A program made the translations under genes and the position numbers. Below, in pieces: positions 31,766 through 41,221 of a stretch of DNA of 64,000 nucleotides; position 1 is the stretch's first letter; every line of letters begins with the position of its first letter. The DNA comes from Bacteroidales bacterium (GTDB taxonomy: Bacteria > Bacteroidota > Bacteroidia > Bacteroidales > Muribaculaceae), in NCBI GenBank assembly GCA_014800895.1, contig JAAVFG010000054.1, positions 1 to 64,000 on the forward strand, written 5' to 3'. The notes below the pieces were generated by a model. That model saw nothing but the letters and a program-made list of their open reading frames with translations. It searched no databases and was not told where the DNA came from.

Positions 31766-32360
31766 TGGAAATTAGCCTTCTATATTGAAATGTCCGCATT
31801 TCAATATAATTAATAAAAAAAGCTTAGACTGCTTCAAGGGCTGAATACTGTTACCGGGAAGACATAATAAAAAAAATTAATGTATATTGTTACGTTTATC
31901 TTTTTCCTTCGTATTAATAATATAAGATTATGAAAAAGGAAAGATTGAACATAGCATTTTTGGAATTGCCGGGAGTTTGGGAGTTTCAACGTGCATTTAA
32001 TAATTAATCAATCGCTAATCAGTGGGTTACATCATAAATTTAATGCTGTTAAATGTTCTTACCGTTGAATTTCAACAGTTTACGATTTTTGGCTTATCTG
32101 TATTATACTGAATCGTAATTAGATAATAAACTGCATTGAAAAGTATGCTCAGATGACAACTATGCCTTATTATTGTAGACTTACATTGGCGACGACTGGG
32201 GGCGGGAGTCTCTCGGCCGTCAGTCTATCCGGAAATGGGAGAGAGCCGGGGATGCGCCTCTTATGCGTTTATTTAATTAAATATTAGGTTGTTAAAATAT
32301 TAACTCTAAAATATTAGCACCTTTGGATATAATGTATATTATTGATTAACTATATATTAA
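31766..32360. other. Non-coding stretch with repeat copies, left part of the accessory island
   Basis: About 600 bp of AT-rich DNA without a credible gene. It contains a 99-bp repeat copy (31970-32068), one copy of the CGACTGGGGGCGGGAG repeat (near 32174-32211), and the left arm of an inverted repeat whose right arm lies at 32369-32382. Confidence 0.6.
31970..32068 (+). repeat. 99-bp dispersed repeat, copy 1
   Basis: It aligns without gaps to 38577-38675 at about 80% identity by hand count (roughly 20 differences). Both copies keep one open frame of 32 codons ending at the same TGA. 20 of 32 encoded residues are identical, starting RE-GSFN. Confidence 0.75.
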
Positions 32361-36711: not shown

Positions 36712-37260
36712 CTAAAACTCCTTTGCGATCTTTCTTAAATCCATAAGTTTTTTTCTTACATTCTTAGGAGTTTTTCCGGCATTCTTGATGTTGAGAGGGT
36801 AATAATAACCTTCATTATTATTCAACTCCTGAGATTCTTTCGCTTCTGCATCCGCAGAGTCCTTCGTATTTTCAAATTCGAGAACACAATAATCATTCAT
36901 AAATGTATTGACCTCATTCTCGGCATCAATCATTTTAAGTCCAAGTAACGCGCTCAGTGTCTGACGGAAAGTAGATAATGTCCCACTCTTTACAGTACTC
37001 GGACGATGCGTCTGACAGATATGCCATTTCAATCGCCCGTTGAGTCCTTTACCTTTAGTACTTATACCGAAATATATTGCCACATAGTCTTTCCCTTCGA
37101 ACGTTTTGTGATGAAGCATATTCTGATCTTCTATCGGAAGTTGTGACAGAAGTCTCTCAGCCCTCTCTGTTTCACACCACCACCGATACCATCCCGGTGC
37201 TTCCTTACAGATATTTTGACGTTTATTCAGAATATCTCTGATTTCTTTTACTCTTTTCAT
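36712..37260 (-). CDS. GIY-YIG-like nuclease
   Basis: The 182-residue protein has a GIY-YIG-like order of motifs: GWYRWWCE (GIY strand, residues ~22-29), VAIYFGIS (YIG strand), LNGRLKWHI (conserved Arg helix), then a Glu (SQELNNN) and Asn in YYYPLNIKN. The family cuts DNA using this set of Tyr, Arg and Glu residues. The first motif reads GWY and the second YFG, so it is a divergent member. It follows the DUF6884-like gene by 10 nt, as an operon. Confidence 0.55.
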   Translation of the reverse strand: MKRVKEIRDILNKRQNICKEAPGWYRWWCETERAERLLSQLPIEDQNMLHHKTFEGKDYVAIYFGISTKGKGLNGRLKWHICQTHRPSTVKSGTLSTFRQTLSALLGLKMIDAENEVNTFMNDYCVLEFENTKDSADAEAKESQELNNNEGYYYPLNIKNAGKTPKNVRKKLMDLRKIAKEF

Positions 37261-37270
37261 TTAGAAATTG

Positions 37271-37735
37271 CTATAGTATTGTTTTATTCTTAATTGCCTT
37301 ATTCAATGCCGGTAGTCTTTTTCCCATAGGCATTCCATCCAACGGCAACTGACAATTTGATATACGATGAGAACCTATTAAATAATCAAGATAATTCTTT
37401 CCTGCAAGTATTATGTATTTTGTATCAGCAGAAAATCTTTTAGACAGCTGTTGCCAAACAATATCCGCCCATTCCTTCCTTTCTTTTGCAGAAGCATTAT
37501 TAAGAGTCTGTTCATATTTCAATATAGGCTGGTTAAGAGACAATAAATAATGTTTTGCAGAAAGAATAAAGATTCTATCTTCCCCGACATTAAGCACCTC
37601 TTTCGCATACTGAAGAGATTTCTTAAATAAAGGACTGTCGTATAAATTCTTTGCAAGCACCGGTCCATTTGTAGTATCTATTTTTCTCTTTACGCAAGAA
37701 ATCAATACTATTGTATTTTCTTTACTCTCTGACAT
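37271..37735 (-). CDS. DUF6884-like protein
   Basis: The 154-residue protein matches DUF6884 in pattern: IVLISCVKRKIDTTNGPVLA, LYDSPLFKKSLQYAKEV, IFILSAKHYLLSLNQPI and YEQTLNNASAKERKEWADIV. The domain occurs in phages and mobile regions, and its fold is thought to be related to nucleotide- or base-handling enzymes such as the ArcS/TGT-associated domain; no reaction is proven. It starts 77 nt downstream of the end of a candidate structured RNA. Confidence 0.6.
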   Translation of the reverse strand: MSESKENTIVLISCVKRKIDTTNGPVLAKNLYDSPLFKKSLQYAKEVLNVGEDRIFILSAKHYLLSLNQPILKYEQTLNNASAKERKEWADIVWQQLSKRFSADTKYIILAGKNYLDYLIGSHRISNCQLPLDGMPMGKRLPALNKAIKNKTIL

Positions 37736-37811
37736 TTTAAAATATCATTTATCGATACCCGGCGATCGACCTGCCGCCATCATCGCCCTCAAATGATGAT
37801 AGGTTCAAAAT

Positions 37812-38295
37812 AAAAAAAGCGTGAGAGCCACATCTCGTGTCCGTCCCGCTATCTGAGGCCTTCGCATTGCCCAATGGAGTGGAACGGACAACGACGGAGC
37901 CTCACGCATGATATGATATCGACCGACGACGGATGCTCACGCATCCGCATCATCAGCATTGTAGATCATATCTACATGGGCGTCTATCGCTGTCTCACGT
38001 CCTTGACTCCATTTGAAAGTTGCGAAGTTTCAGATAGCCAAGAAGGAGCGTCGATATACGCTTTTCTTAATTAATTTTACAAGTCGCTCTTCGACTTACA
38101 TATGAAGTTGTTTAAACTAATTTACGAATGTTAAAATTAGGTATATTCTTCATTCTTTTATTCCCCTTTGCGGATCTTTTAGGCTGCTTCCGCCCCTCTC
38201 ATCGGTACCAACCGAGAGGTTGCTACCTCTTCGAGTGACAAAATCAGCGCAAAAATCTCTCGCAAATGTGAATAAAAAATAAGTTTAAACAACTT
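37812..38295 (-). ncRNA. Candidate ~480-nt structured RNA
   Basis: On the minus strand a -7 element TAACTTTG (38302-38309) is followed by a region that folds by eye into many helices: a 15-bp terminal stem (38282-38296 with 38104-38118), hairpins 38081-38097, 37960-37976 (TGTAGAT/ATCTACA) and 37930-37947 (CGGATGC-GUGA-GCATCCG, a GNRA loop), and a final extended stem GCGTGAG/CTCACGC plus TGTCCGT/ACGGACA (37819-37907) with T7 after it. No known RNA family was recognised. Boundaries are inferred. Confidence 0.5.
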
Positions 38296-38296
38296 C
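38104..38296. repeat. 15-bp perfect inverted repeat enclosing 193 bp
   Basis: GAAGTTGTTTAAACT (38104-38118) and AGTTTAAACAACTTC (38282-38296) are exact complements. Inside, further pairing continues on the minus strand (TTTTATTC with GAATAAAA, TTTGCG with CGCAAA), favouring an RNA stem over transposon ends, though a small MITE-like element cannot be excluded. Confidence 0.65.
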
Positions 38297-38301
38297 AATC
38301 G

Positions 38302-38309
38302 CAAAGTTA
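38302..38309 (-). promoter_or_regulatory. -7 element for the ~480-nt RNA candidate
   Basis: Minus-strand TAACTTTG, placing the start near 38295, exactly at the 5' arm of the 15-bp inverted repeat. No TTTG at -33 was found. Confidence 0.4.
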
Positions 38310-38340
38310 ATAAAAATTTTACACTTGCGAAATTTCAATT

Positions 38341-38431
38341 AATAAAAAATGCCAGCTATCCCAAAACTCCTTGGATAGTTGCGAAGTTTCAGATAGCTTC
38401 GGGGATAGCTGACATAATTACGGTATCTTTT
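38341..38431 (-). ncRNA. Candidate ~90-nt small RNA with terminator
   Basis: Minus strand: -7 element TAACTTTG (38438-38445), then a 10-bp perfect stem CAGCTATCCC/GGGATAGCTG (38402-38411 with 38353-38362) followed by GCATTTTTTATT. The stem encloses a 21-nt segment (38377-38397) identical to one inside the larger RNA (38018-38038). Confidence 0.5.
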
Positions 38432-38437
38432 TATGAG

Positions 38438-38445
38438 CAAAGTTA
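38438..38445 (-). promoter_or_regulatory. -7 element for the ~90-nt RNA candidate
   Basis: Minus-strand TAACTTTG, about 27 nt before the terminator stem. The TTTG nearby (38458-38461) is spaced only 12 nt, so the upstream element is missing. Confidence 0.4.
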
Positions 38446-38476
38446 ATATCATTTGATCAAATGTGACTAATCCAAG

Positions 38477-38576
38477 TTAATCCATCTTTTATGACCAGAT
38501 CTTTTTATTTTATCTGGATGTCTCATTATCTTTTTTTGTAGATAATATCCATGGATGAAAATAGCGCTTGAAGATT
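38477..38576. repeat. Duplicated promoter/start segment, copy A
   Basis: Closely similar to 39216-39311, from TTAATCCATCTTTTATGACC through CCATGGATGAAAATAGCGC and GAAGATT. In copy B the last part contains the ATG of the gene at 39303; in copy A the same position is TTG. Confidence 0.75.
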
Positions 38577-38675
38577 CGGGAGACCGGGAGTTTCAATGCG
38601 CATTTAACAATTAATCAACGGATAAACGGTGAGTTGCATAATAAATTCAACACTGTAAAATGTGCTTACTGTTGA
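38577..38675 (+). repeat. 99-bp dispersed repeat, copy 2
   Basis: Gap-free match to 31970-32068 at about 80% identity. It follows directly on copy A of the duplicated segment, so a TTG-initiated frame would run through it to TGA 38673-38675. Confidence 0.75.
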
Positions 38676-38699
38676 ATTTCAAAAATTTACGTTTAGACT

Positions 38700-38965
38700 T
38701 ACATTGGCGGCGACTGGGGGCGGTTTCATTTTGAGATGAGATGCGGAGCGCATCCGGATGGTCTCTGTGTAACATCCAAATCTTTTTAAGGATTTAAAAT
38801 CCCATGGCGTTATGAAAAGATCTAAAAATCCGTGAGGCATCCGCGTCAATCTCCTGATTATCTGTGATTTTGATAATAATATAAGGCAGTTTACATTTTT
38901 ACGGGCATCGAGCCCTCAAAAATTTAGCGGAAGCCGGGAGGCTCCCGCCCCCAGTGCGCCGCTGA
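38700..38965. repeat. Inverted copies of the ACTGGGGGCGGG repeat
   Basis: GGCGGCGACTGGGGGCGG (38706-38723) and a complementary copy CCGCCCCCAGTGCGCCGC (about 38946-38963) face each other across ~220 bp. Direct copies occur near 32174-32211 and 32994-33031. Confidence 0.65.
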
Positions 38966-38972
38966 ATCATTC

Positions 38973-39101
38973 CTCTGAATGTTGGAAGACCGACGGCTCC
39001 GCCGCCGAGTAACCTCGTCTTGTTTAGCCCCCGGCTGCGGGCTATGCCCTTACCGGGGGCTAAACAAGAACTCGCCGCTCCGCGGCTACCATCCGGATCT
39101 A
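38973..39101. repeat. GC-rich hairpin repeat, copy 2
   Basis: Related to 33034-33160. Here the main stem TTAGCCCCCGG/CCGGGGGCTAA is a perfect 11 bp, whereas copy 1 has a mismatch, and a second small stem GCCGC/GCGGC follows. Confidence 0.7.
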
Positions 39102-39198
39102 CCTGTCCTACTGTTCTATTATCTAAAAATAAACAAGGACTCGCCGCTCCGCGGCTACCATCCGGATCTGCCTGTCCTACTATTCTAATATCTAAAAA
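39061..39198. repeat. Two tandem 69-bp units
   Basis: Units 39061-39129 and 39130-39198 both read TAAACAAGRACTCGCCGCTC onward to ATCTAAAAA and differ at only a few bases. Each includes the CTCCGCGGCTACC element of the GC-rich repeat. Confidence 0.8.
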
Positions 39199-39215
39199 AA
39201 TGGGAATAATCTATC

Positions 39216-39311
39216 TTAATCCATCTTTTATGACCAAATATTTTTATTTTATCCGGATGTCTCATTAAATTTGTAGAAAATTTCCATGGATGAAAATAGC
39301 GCATGAAGATT
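39216..39311. repeat. Duplicated promoter/start segment, copy B
   Basis: Copy of 38477-38576 that covers the upstream region and first codons of the gene at 39303. Confidence 0.75.
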
Positions 39312-39905
39312 GATTACCAAAATAAGGAGTTTATTGCAAAACTGACCGAGGCTGTCGAACGCCGCCTTGGGAGAAAGATTGTCTCTCCTCGCGATTTCGA
39401 TTTTCTATCAGCGGAGCTTGCAGACATCGGAAGCAGTGTATCAGCTACTACTTTGAAACGAATCTGGGGCTATAACCGCGATACATCTTCTGCTTATCGC
39501 CCGTATCAATACACGATCACCGCTTTAATACGCTTGTTGGGTTTCAGATCTATTGATGATTATATTAATTCTGATGGTGATGACTCCATGCAGTCTTCCT
39601 CCTTTATCGGGGCAATAGTCACGGCTGATGAATTGGCACCGGATATGATTGTTGACCTCTCATGGGAGCCCGCCCGCCGATGCCGTCTGAAATGTATCGG
39701 CGCAGGAAAATTTGAAGTCATTCTTTCAGAAAGAGGCAAACTCAAACCCGGAGATATCGTAAGATTCATGAGCCTGACCCAGAACGCCCCGTTATATTTC
39801 AACGAAGTGATACGCAACGGTGGCAAAGAAAGATTTGTATATACCGCAGGACAGCGCACCGGAATCCGCTACTCCATACTCGACTCATCGGAAGCAGCCG
39901 ACTGA
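39303..39905 (+). CDS. Uncharacterised Bacteroidales protein with putative N-terminal DNA-binding region
   Basis: The 200-residue protein has a helical N-terminus with SVSATTLKRIWGY (~48-60), a pattern seen in a large family of uncharacterised Bacteroidetes proteins that looks like a helix-turn-helix recognition helix. The C-terminal half (residues ~100-190: DLSWEPARRCRLKCIGAGKF, GKLKPGDIVRFMS) is a small beta domain. Its 3' end overlaps the convergent kinase gene by 37 bp. Its start region is duplicated at 38477-38576. Regulatory role is inference. Confidence 0.65.
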   Translation: MKIDYQNKEFIAKLTEAVERRLGRKIVSPRDFDFLSAELADIGSSVSATTLKRIWGYNRDTSSAYRPYQYTITALIRLLGFRSIDDYINSDGDDSMQSSSFIGAIVTADELAPDMIVDLSWEPARRCRLKCIGAGKFEVILSERGKLKPGDIVRFMSLTQNAPLYFNEVIRNGGKERFVYTAGQRTGIRYSILDSSEAAD

Positions 39906-41221
39906 CTCGCTTCAATATGAGCTTTGTAATTGGCATCAATCTTTCTGTATGCATCATTCATACGCCTGATAATGTATTCTCCTATTACTTTACTCTCTCT
40001 TTTTGCCAAATCATCAGATCCTCCCATTTGCCGCACTGAATAATATACATTTTCCTCCCATTTATTCTTAAAATAATCAGAATTTTTCCTAAGGAGATCT
40101 GACGATTTATTATAGGGATCTATGGTTATCAATTCTTCAATCGCTTCGTCGATACTTTTAATATTCTGCTCACGCGTCATCTGTATCAACTCTTCCGACG
40201 GACCTGCCGGAACAGTAACCTTTACCGTATCCGTACGGTTAATATAGACAGTATTCGTGGCTCCCGTATCCGTACGGTTTATGTAGACAGTATCCGCGGC
40301 TGCCGGAACCGTCACTATTCTTTCCGGAATATTCTTCATAGCTATCTCCGCCTCCTTCCTCTTATTATTCAGGTATATCATCCCGGCGGCTGCGATTAGA
40401 TTGACAAATAAGAACAGGATAACTATCGCCTTCCAATTCGAGCGCTTTCTAAGATGCCGGATGAGATAGGCGGCTGAGGGGCGCAATGCCGGCTCTGGTC
40501 TAAGACATTTATCTACCAGTCGGCGGTAGCGTCTCCCGGGTAGGAGTATCTGCATGATTTTACCTGCCGCATAGATATCGGCACTCATATCTGAGGGTTT
40601 GCCGCTATCAGTTGAGTGTTGCTCTGGAGCACCGAAAGCAGCTGTCCCCGCAGAGTTCTTATACACTACGAAGTCGTCGCCATCGCCGAGACCGAGGTCT
40701 ATGATCTTGACACGGTTTCCTTTATGCGTTATCAGGATGTTATCCGGCTTCAGGTCGCGGTGTGATATTCCCGACTGATGAAGATAATCCAAAGCTTCAA
40801 GCAGACTTATCATCACTTCGCGCCGCATATCAGCATCGGCTTCGGGATGAGCATCGAGCCATTTTCCGAGTTCGGCGCCATCGACATATTCCATCACTAA
40901 CGCCTCCCCTACTCCGGGGATAACATCCCATGATACGATTCTCGCTATCCCCGGATGTTCGAGCCGGCTACCAAGCTCGAATTCCTTGAAAAGAAACCTC
41001 TCCCATTCCGGCATTCCCCTGTATTGCTCCCCTAACGTCTTGATAAAATACTTTCTGCCATAGCGTATGGCAGAATAAAGGGTATATGGTCCGTGATCTC
41101 CTATTCTCTTTACATCGCTCCATTCCGCCACACGCATCCGCATGGCATCACCGTCATATCCAACTGTATTAATTACTGAATTACCGGAGATACTTATTTC
41201 CTTACCACTTTCTCTCTTCAT
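39869..41221 (-). CDS. Transmembrane serine/threonine protein kinase
   Basis: The 450-residue protein has a kinase domain at residues ~35-265: glycine-loop region KRIGDHGPYTLYSAI, catalytic-lysine strand YFIKTL, HRDLKPDN with D156, a DLG metal motif in place of DFG (KIIDLGLGDGDD) and GAPEQHS. A membrane helix follows (AIVILFLFVNLIAAAGMIYL), then an extracytoplasmic tail containing two copies of TVYINRTDT and a helical end. It resembles Hanks-type receptor kinases of Bacteroidetes. Substrates are unknown. The regulator gene converging on it could be functionally linked (inference). Confidence 0.85.
   Translation of the reverse strand: MKRESGKEISISGNSVINTVGYDGDAMRMRVAEWSDVKRIGDHGPYTLYSAIRYGRKYFIKTLGEQYRGMPEWERFLFKEFELGSRLEHPGIARIVSWDVIPGVGEALVMEYVDGAELGKWLDAHPEADADMRREVMISLLEALDYLHQSGISHRDLKPDNILITHKGNRVKIIDLGLGDGDDFVVYKNSAGTAAFGAPEQHSTDSGKPSDMSADIYAAGKIMQILLPGRRYRRLVDKCLRPEPALRPSAAYLIRHLRKRSNWKAIVILFLFVNLIAAAGMIYLNNKRKEAEIAMKNIPERIVTVPAAADTVYINRTDTGATNTVYINRTDTVKVTVPAGPSEELIQMTREQNIKSIDEAIEELITIDPYNKSSDLLRKNSDYFKNKWEENVYYSVRQMGGSDDLAKRESKVIGEYIIRRMNDAYRKIDANYKAHIEASQSAASDESSME

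Follow-up and report, generated by a model that had tools for sequence, protein, structure and literature searches.

A putative attenuator-type leader RNA in front of accessory genes of Bacteroidales

Introduction

Upstream of a two-gene operon on the minus strand of a Muribaculaceae contig lies a stretch of 484 nt that is rich in hairpins. Does it encode one large RNA, and is this RNA tied to the genes behind it? The window, i.e. the whole stretch of DNA analysed here, comprises 64,000 nt (positions 1 to 64,000 of contig JAAVFG010000054.1, assembly GCA_014800895.1) of a Bacteroidales bacterium. From the letters alone the original prediction described, at 37812-38295, a single RNA of about 480 nt that has a perfect 15-bp terminal stem, matches no known family and could be a mobile RNA element, a regulatory leader or a guide-type RNA next to a nuclease.

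Results

The 484 nt consist of two unrelated things, a MITE-like repeat on the 5' side and a structured RNA on the 3' side. The sequence TTAACTTTGC is found at 38312-38301 (minus strand) upstream of the region, as described. The region as a whole folds far better than its shuffles (z -10.7, 0 of 100 as good), and the same holds for the 3' part taken by itself (z -7.4, 0 of 200 as good). A search of the same genome with 37800-38450 returned three strong partial matches (95-97%), which cover only 38103-38297, and weaker ones to the 3' part, whose copies there are 71-79% identical over the matched parts. As the 195-nt piece and the 3' part match separately, a single RNA of 484 nt was rejected; the 3' part of the predicted molecule (about 37799-38069) stands as a structured RNA and the 5' part (38103-38297) is a repeat.

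This repeat (38103-38297, minus strand) is 193-195 bp long, lies between the promoter and the RNA core and is bounded by terminal inverted repeats of 15-21 bp; the 21-nt arms at 38103-38123 and 38277-38297 are 95% identical. A pattern search for the inverted repeats found intact pairs at four places in the genome and, besides these four short copies, no second kind of pair that could mark an autonomous partner. Within the genus, the repeat plus neighbouring sequence matches in 36 of 61 genomes, and the repeat itself is present in at least nine copies in each of two other genomes. The flanks of the copies are unrelated to one another, and among the nine copies with both flanks readable, which were compared for target-site duplications, only some carry 3-bp A/T repeats at both ends. 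Since the repeat is multicopy and sits in different flanks, the supposed terminal stem is a transposon-type inverted repeat, present in near-perfect form. In being short, multicopy and bounded by terminal inverted repeats, the element resembles a MITE. The suspicion of decayed transposon ends is thus correct for the 5' 195 nt and fails for the 3' part, in which compensatory changes are seen throughout the order and the gene context is conserved. With the MITE in its 5' region, the leader copy of the window may be impaired.

The covariance model R1 has a full-length match to the RNA core at about 37799-38069 (minus strand, as are all parts below) with 216.6 bits and an E value of 1.8e-61, a score from a model built partly from this very copy. 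The core begins with a 5' arm (37971-38069, end approximate), which in a long hairpin is paired to the middle strand and the 3' part; its helices, numbered as in A2, are 33-41/250-258, 44-50/240-246, 62-67/228-233 and 81-86/214-218. The predicted hairpin with a GUGA loop is present at 37931-37946, at the apex, as a helix of variable sequence with compensatory changes (helix 10). The middle strand (GCGUGAGGCUCCGUCGUUGUCCGUUCCACU..., starting with GCGUGAG; 37874-37907) has two alternative partners, the 5' arm and the 3' arm of a terminator-type hairpin (GCGGGACGGACACGAGAUGUGGCUCUCACGC; 37819-37849), and the run of seven T expected behind this stem follows at 37812-37818. From there it is 77 nt to the ATG at 37735, in agreement with the predicted gap. 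Between them, a downstream motif (CAUCAUUUGAGGGCGAUGAUGGCGG; 37774-37798) forms a small hairpin by inspection and covaries with the 3' arm in relatives; its loop GAGGG can, again by inspection, pair with CUCUC of the 3' arm.

Altogether 111 leader copies were collected, of which 107 were aligned (effective number 98.6). Covariation is very strong in these 107 and in the 50 of them used for the long hairpin. One position pair in the 107-copy alignment reads TA in 50, AT in 23, GC in 16 and CG in 15 copies and is paired in 98%; up to four Watson-Crick pair types occur at a single position. In the long hairpin (50 sequences, 54 pairs) 97.1% of the cells are paired, compared to 35-48% in controls slid by 1-3 columns; changes on both sides are seen in 28 of the 54 pairs, and double-change cells number 396 versus 127 in shuffles, all these counts, like the partner-swap statistics below, being given without correction for phylogeny. 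Two pairs stay U-G in 46 and 47 of the 50 sequences, which favours RNA over DNA. Many positions of the leader alignment are invariant. A kissing loop between two hairpins was considered and rejected, as the covarying helix turned out to be nested in the long hairpin. By its covariation, the 3' part is a genuine structured RNA, of a family that is apparently undescribed.

The terminator form is conserved as well. In the 50 sequences 96.3% of its cells are paired and six pairs have changed on both sides, values that none of 500 shuffles reached; in helix 2 of the terminator stem, two of the 13 pairs, both inner ones, do not form in 18 and 22 of the 50 sequences (about 40%). Compared with swapped partners, the 5' arm fits its middle strand with z -17.0 in the 107 family copies and z -11.7 in 27 further copies, and the middle strand fits the 3' arm with z -4.9 and z -6.7, respectively (0 of 2000 permutations each). 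Among 43 further copies, covariation (z -9.0) is seen for a local hairpin within the 5' arm (UUCUUGGC/GUCAAGG) as well. A surprise was that the 3' arm covaries, too, with the stretch from the U-run to the gene (z -4.8 in 106 family copies, z -7.0 in 37 further copies, 0 of 2000 permutations). The 43 further copies comprise 25 of the 26 loci L133-L158 (without L141), 15 of 20 other fetched loci (L164, L166, L168, L170 and L175 were left out) and L127-L129, three diverged copies from the same genome as the window; the other 40 come from other families. All 43 could be parsed for the local hairpin, 37 for the 3' arm and downstream stretch and 27 for partner swaps and the U-run. A U-run (at least five T in 9 nt) follows in 95 of the 107 family copies, being weak in 12, and in all 27 parsed further copies; the terminator-type hairpin and U-run are kept even in copies of very different sequence. 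Mutually exclusive, conserved terminator and antiterminator pairings, as they characterize attenuator leaders, are thus found.

The -7 region TATTAACTTTGC at 38301-38312 (minus strand) is of the Bacteroides type TAnnTTTG, judged by its sequence and by enrichment of the motif in the copies. Of 108 copies, 97 have TA..TTTG at a distance of 50-150 nt upstream from the core; three control windows give counts of 4-9 of 105-107, and the opposite strand gives 11 of 108. The MITE-like insertion has moved the promoter of the window copy farther upstream of the core. On the other side, 104 copies have sufficient flank to be examined for a gene. In 87 of them the start of an ORF of 60 codons or more follows the core by 30-110 nt, compared with 24 of 104 for a control point, and the median distance over all is 56 nt. 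The first downstream ORF lies on the same strand at 97 of 104 loci, the first upstream ORF at 55. Together with the covariation, this arrangement of an upstream promoter motif and a same-strand gene directly downstream, typical of attenuator leaders, supports the regulatory leader among the options of the original prediction.

The genes themselves are diverse. The first and second downstream ORFs (192) form 135 clusters, including 114 singletons, which is not the functionally coherent gene set of a riboswitch. Among 96 first genes (the 97 found minus that of L005, which contains N; the first-ORF caller can mis-assign the first gene and did so for L086 and L090) Pfam identified LRR_5 in 15, DUF6567 in three and DUF6884 in one. 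An ORF of an LRR-type cluster is among the first two at 31 of 104 loci, compared with 0 of 204 upstream ORFs, and signal-peptide-like starts, by a crude hydropathy rule, are found in 50 of 90 first genes versus 41 of 204 upstream ORFs. PADLOC models such as mad2, QatA, SoFic and PDC-M57A match one or two of the 96 first genes each, and an exclusive role in defence was rejected for this reason. As side observations, the leaders L147, L148, L172 and L247, all outside the window's family, stand before a small protein of 72-103 aa with a similar N-terminal region, which by eye looks like a helix-turn-helix, and L005, a diverged leader copy from the same genome as the window, adjoins a gene that appears kinase-like by eye.

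In the window, the first gene (37271-37735, minus strand) encodes a DUF6884 protein (PF21818, E 3.5e-35; PADLOC candidate defence model PDC-M57A, E 1.1e-40), the second (36712-37260, minus strand) a GIY-YIG protein (PF20815, E 6.4e-21). The former protein was found in one of 61 genomes of the genus, its own, and the latter in three of 119 genomes of the family. A special link between RNA and nuclease genes, with homologues always beside DUF6884/GIY-YIG, therefore had to be abandoned: the cargo is rare, DUF6884 is the first ORF behind one of 96 leaders, and the RNA is widespread (103 of 149 genomes of the family). Neither a guide RNA nor a mobile RNA element finds support; the copies in the genome are diverged, and no nuclease or transposase recurs among the first genes in the matches listed (25 of 62 Pfam families).

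With 37790-38085 as query, these 103 matching genomes of Muribaculaceae belong to 25 of 30 genera; identity is mostly 68-79%, and a single genome has as many as eight matched pieces; the covariance model recognizes six full copies in the genome of the window. Across the order the model matches 60 of 295 Bacteroidales genomes (four of the 60 from Muribaculaceae) in 31 families. Among the sequences listed are compact versions of about 180 nt with the same arms and 3' end, weak matches to which are less certain. Since few candidates were scored per genome (six in the order, under strict filters, and five in the family), the copy numbers given are minimum values. When 296 genomes from the whole phylum were sampled, among them two or more further ones of the order, the genome of the window and one weak match (44.6 bits) were all that was found. 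A DNA pattern scan of named genomes gave at least 120 stretches; among the 80 listed, 75 carry Bacteroidales-type names (including Candidatus Minthosoma, which we take to belong here), one is nameless and four bear Firmicutes-type names and may be mis-binned contigs. The family is apparently restricted to the order Bacteroidales, judging from these searches. Isolates in which the model confirmed the leader are Parabacteroides distasonis, Xylanibacter rodentium and Paraprevotella xylaniphila (the latter as a match truncated at its 5' end). A search with the copy of the window matched no plasmid and one phage-labelled fragment, and the DNA pattern matched three viral contigs; carriage by plasmids or phages was rejected on these results.

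No Rfam 15 family reaches its gathering score on the RNA core, in line with the original prediction, which named no known family. In the whole window Rfam identifies only a tRNA and an S4-Bacteroidia leader, both elsewhere; 37600-39300 at E <=10 gives eight matches to unrelated families, all below gathering scores. Among 12 relatives only DUF805 RNA was found, beside L169, and the L165 core gave no match at E <=5. The leader RNA is described in none of the titles and abstracts found by a search that excluded subscription papers and supplements, nor in the accessible portions of PMC8040213, PMC2864571 and PMC11697453; the accessible portion of PMC2965389 contains none of the Bacteroidota terms looked for. 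On this evidence we take the leader RNA for a new family of an attenuator-like kind.

How did one leader come to precede so many genes? Among 14 listed pairs of leaders with at least 85% identity, ten stand before different first genes, three have the first gene or the whole unit in common, and one (L081/L047) fits neither group clearly. Leaders that are 85-92% identical stand before different genes, in L013/L062 the identity stops just before the start codon, and some genes of one family stand behind quite different leaders. A 14.8-kb unit is common to two genomes of different genera (L314:2879-17712 and L315; 92.9% identity) in unrelated surroundings. Its start lies at the leader promoter, about 120 nt ahead of the leader core; it carries two TerD-domain genes and ends behind a P-type ATPase gene, and its two ends have no 9-mer in common, direct or inverted. 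Vertical inheritance is also seen, as L035/L071 have 3.3 kb in common on both sides. The best reading is that the leader travels with accessory operons and can precede unrelated genes. That promoter and leader form a mobile "socket" recombined before new genes across Bacteroidales we consider rather unlikely. If true, unrelated accessory surface, stress and defence genes of one genome would be under a common RNA switch, and the socket would be an RNA-level counterpart of the integron platform.

Discussion

Our analysis suggests, with a probability of roughly two in three, that the RNA is a cis-acting attenuator-type leader of Bacteroidales, a portable module of accessory genes. Transcription would start at a Bacteroides-type promoter belonging to the leader, which would form the 5' end of the mRNA. 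In the putative off state, the 5' arm would fold locally, leaving the middle strand free to form with the 3' arm an intrinsic terminator with its U-run; in the on state, the 5' arm would capture the middle strand in the long hairpin and dissolve the terminator. After read-through, the 3' arm could pair with the motif before the start codon, possibly adding control of translation. The data show the family, its structure, the alternative pairings, the promoter motif and the position before genes. Transcription, termination and the direction of the switch are what we infer here, and because the long hairpin, which ends in A-tract/U-run pairing, might also act as a terminator, the assignment of "on" to one form is a guess. 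The module would be carried by accessory genes, often for secreted or surface proteins and also in stress or defence-like operons; in the window it stands before the DUF6884/GIY-YIG operon, with a MITE inserted near its 5' end.

Several observations speak against attenuation. The U-run is weak in 12 of the 107 family copies, and two of the 13 pairs in helix 2 of the terminator stem often do not form. The downstream motif is transcribed after the U-run, and plain attenuation has no need of it; the gene set is without a common substrate, unlike classical riboswitch regulons. Attenuators and riboswitch expression platforms have in common with the leader a promoter, folds that compete for the terminator strand, a U-run and a gene directly downstream. 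They differ in that nearly all of the leader's ~255 nt form one long duplex, in the lack of a common gene function and in the extra covarying partner past the U-run.

In a rival reading the U-run does not terminate and the RNA instead controls translation or mRNA stability, either by the 3' arm and downstream motif gating the ribosome or by the long duplex serving as an RNase III site. The covarying stretch does lie within tens of nucleotides of the AUG, and the duplex is long; yet a terminator-type hairpin with its U-run is kept despite very different sequence, and we hold this explanation to be improbable. Slightly less credible still is an independent, trans-acting sRNA that ends at the terminator, with the downstream gene a mere neighbour or served by read-through. 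The promoter motif and U-run would suit it, and Bacteroides has multicopy sRNA families such as FopS, with a short single-stranded seed plus terminator and acting in trans (PMC11697453, in the portion accessible). FopS RNAs resemble the leader in their many paralogues per genome, Bacteroides promoter and terminator; as described there, their short 5' seed and action in trans are not what we see in the leader RNA, which is large, built as a long hairpin and located before genes in cis. Moreover, distance and strand relative to the ORF are kept in most copies, and the stretch past the U-run covaries with the RNA, a feature that would be superfluous in an RNA that stops at its U-run.

Leader modules common to unrelated accessory operons are known from other phyla, i.e. 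JUMPstart/RfaH and EAR/LoaP, which together with put RNA are the models of processive antitermination. A loading element of this kind would recruit a factor by which the polymerase ignores later terminators in accessory operons. The leader before accessory operons, including the 14.8-kb unit in two genera, and the many invariant positions are consistent with this idea. However, the leader also precedes short genes, and alternative pairing can explain many of the invariant stretches, so that we regard processive antitermination as quite unlikely. One module for unrelated accessory operons is what the leader has in common with JUMPstart/RfaH and EAR/LoaP, in contrast to which it occurs in Bacteroidales, has no Rfam match and also precedes short genes.

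Very unlikely in our view is a DNA-level element, i.e. a recombination or insertion signal for gene cassettes similar to integron attC sites. The 85-92% identical leaders before different genes and the 14.8-kb unit starting at the leader promoter in two unrelated contexts would fit, but the ends of this unit are without common 9-mers, the conserved U-G pairs and the promoter motif point to RNA, and instead of tandem gene-site arrays one full element was read per locus, in loci of up to ~6 kb. Decay of transposon ends throughout, with no functional RNA at all, is true of 38103-38297 and practically excluded for the 3' part by its covariation across the order and conserved gene context.

A candidate-RNA survey was reportedly carried out by Fremin and Bhatt in 2021. 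Palindromic terminator-like candidates from Bacteroidetes, e.g. HMP2_4205 (132 bp), are given in the accessible portion of PMC8040213; those with a stated length there are 40-132 bp, shorter than the leader, and a partial overlap with the supplement is possible. The Rfam DUF805 RNA (RF03081) is cis-regulatory like the leader and differs in length (68 nt) and structure. Two such RNAs lie downstream of the compact leader copy of L169 (1706-1771 and 2670-2738), each before a gene; they are separate elements and not matches to the leader RNA.

The leader, which many gut Bacteroidales carry, represents a large and strongly covarying RNA family that is absent from Rfam 15 and stands before genes for BspA-type LRR surface proteins, before candidate defence genes and before a Ter-type operon. 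Its signal, if found, would open the way to a layer of control that accessory genes of dominant gut bacteria have in common, and with members in cultured species the mechanism is testable at once.

Some minor features surround the locus. In a small separate unit at 38349-38448 (minus strand), a promoter-like box, TATTAACTTTGC (38448-38437), is combined with a terminator-like hairpin of 67 nt and its U-run (fold z -3.9); the hairpin has TCTGAAACTTCGCAACT in common with the RNA core. A loop-pattern scan of the 111 loci found the unit only here, and none was among the matches listed from 61 genomes of the genus; as it accompanies no other leader copy, a role of the hairpin as trans-acting decoy was set aside as a curiosity. 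The segments 38459-38576 and 39198-39311 are 87-93% identical; the gene at 39303 thus has its start, together with the region upstream of it, duplicated. The adjacent 38577-38694 recurs with ~81% identity, both at 31970-32087 and on three other contigs; of these repeats, C17:44213-44327 lies just upstream of another leader copy. Two tandem 69-bp units (39061-39198) are located beside an imperfect inverted repeat (39001-39086), and a Ser/Thr kinase gene at 39869-41221 (minus strand) matches the PADLOC models PD-T4-6 and mad6.
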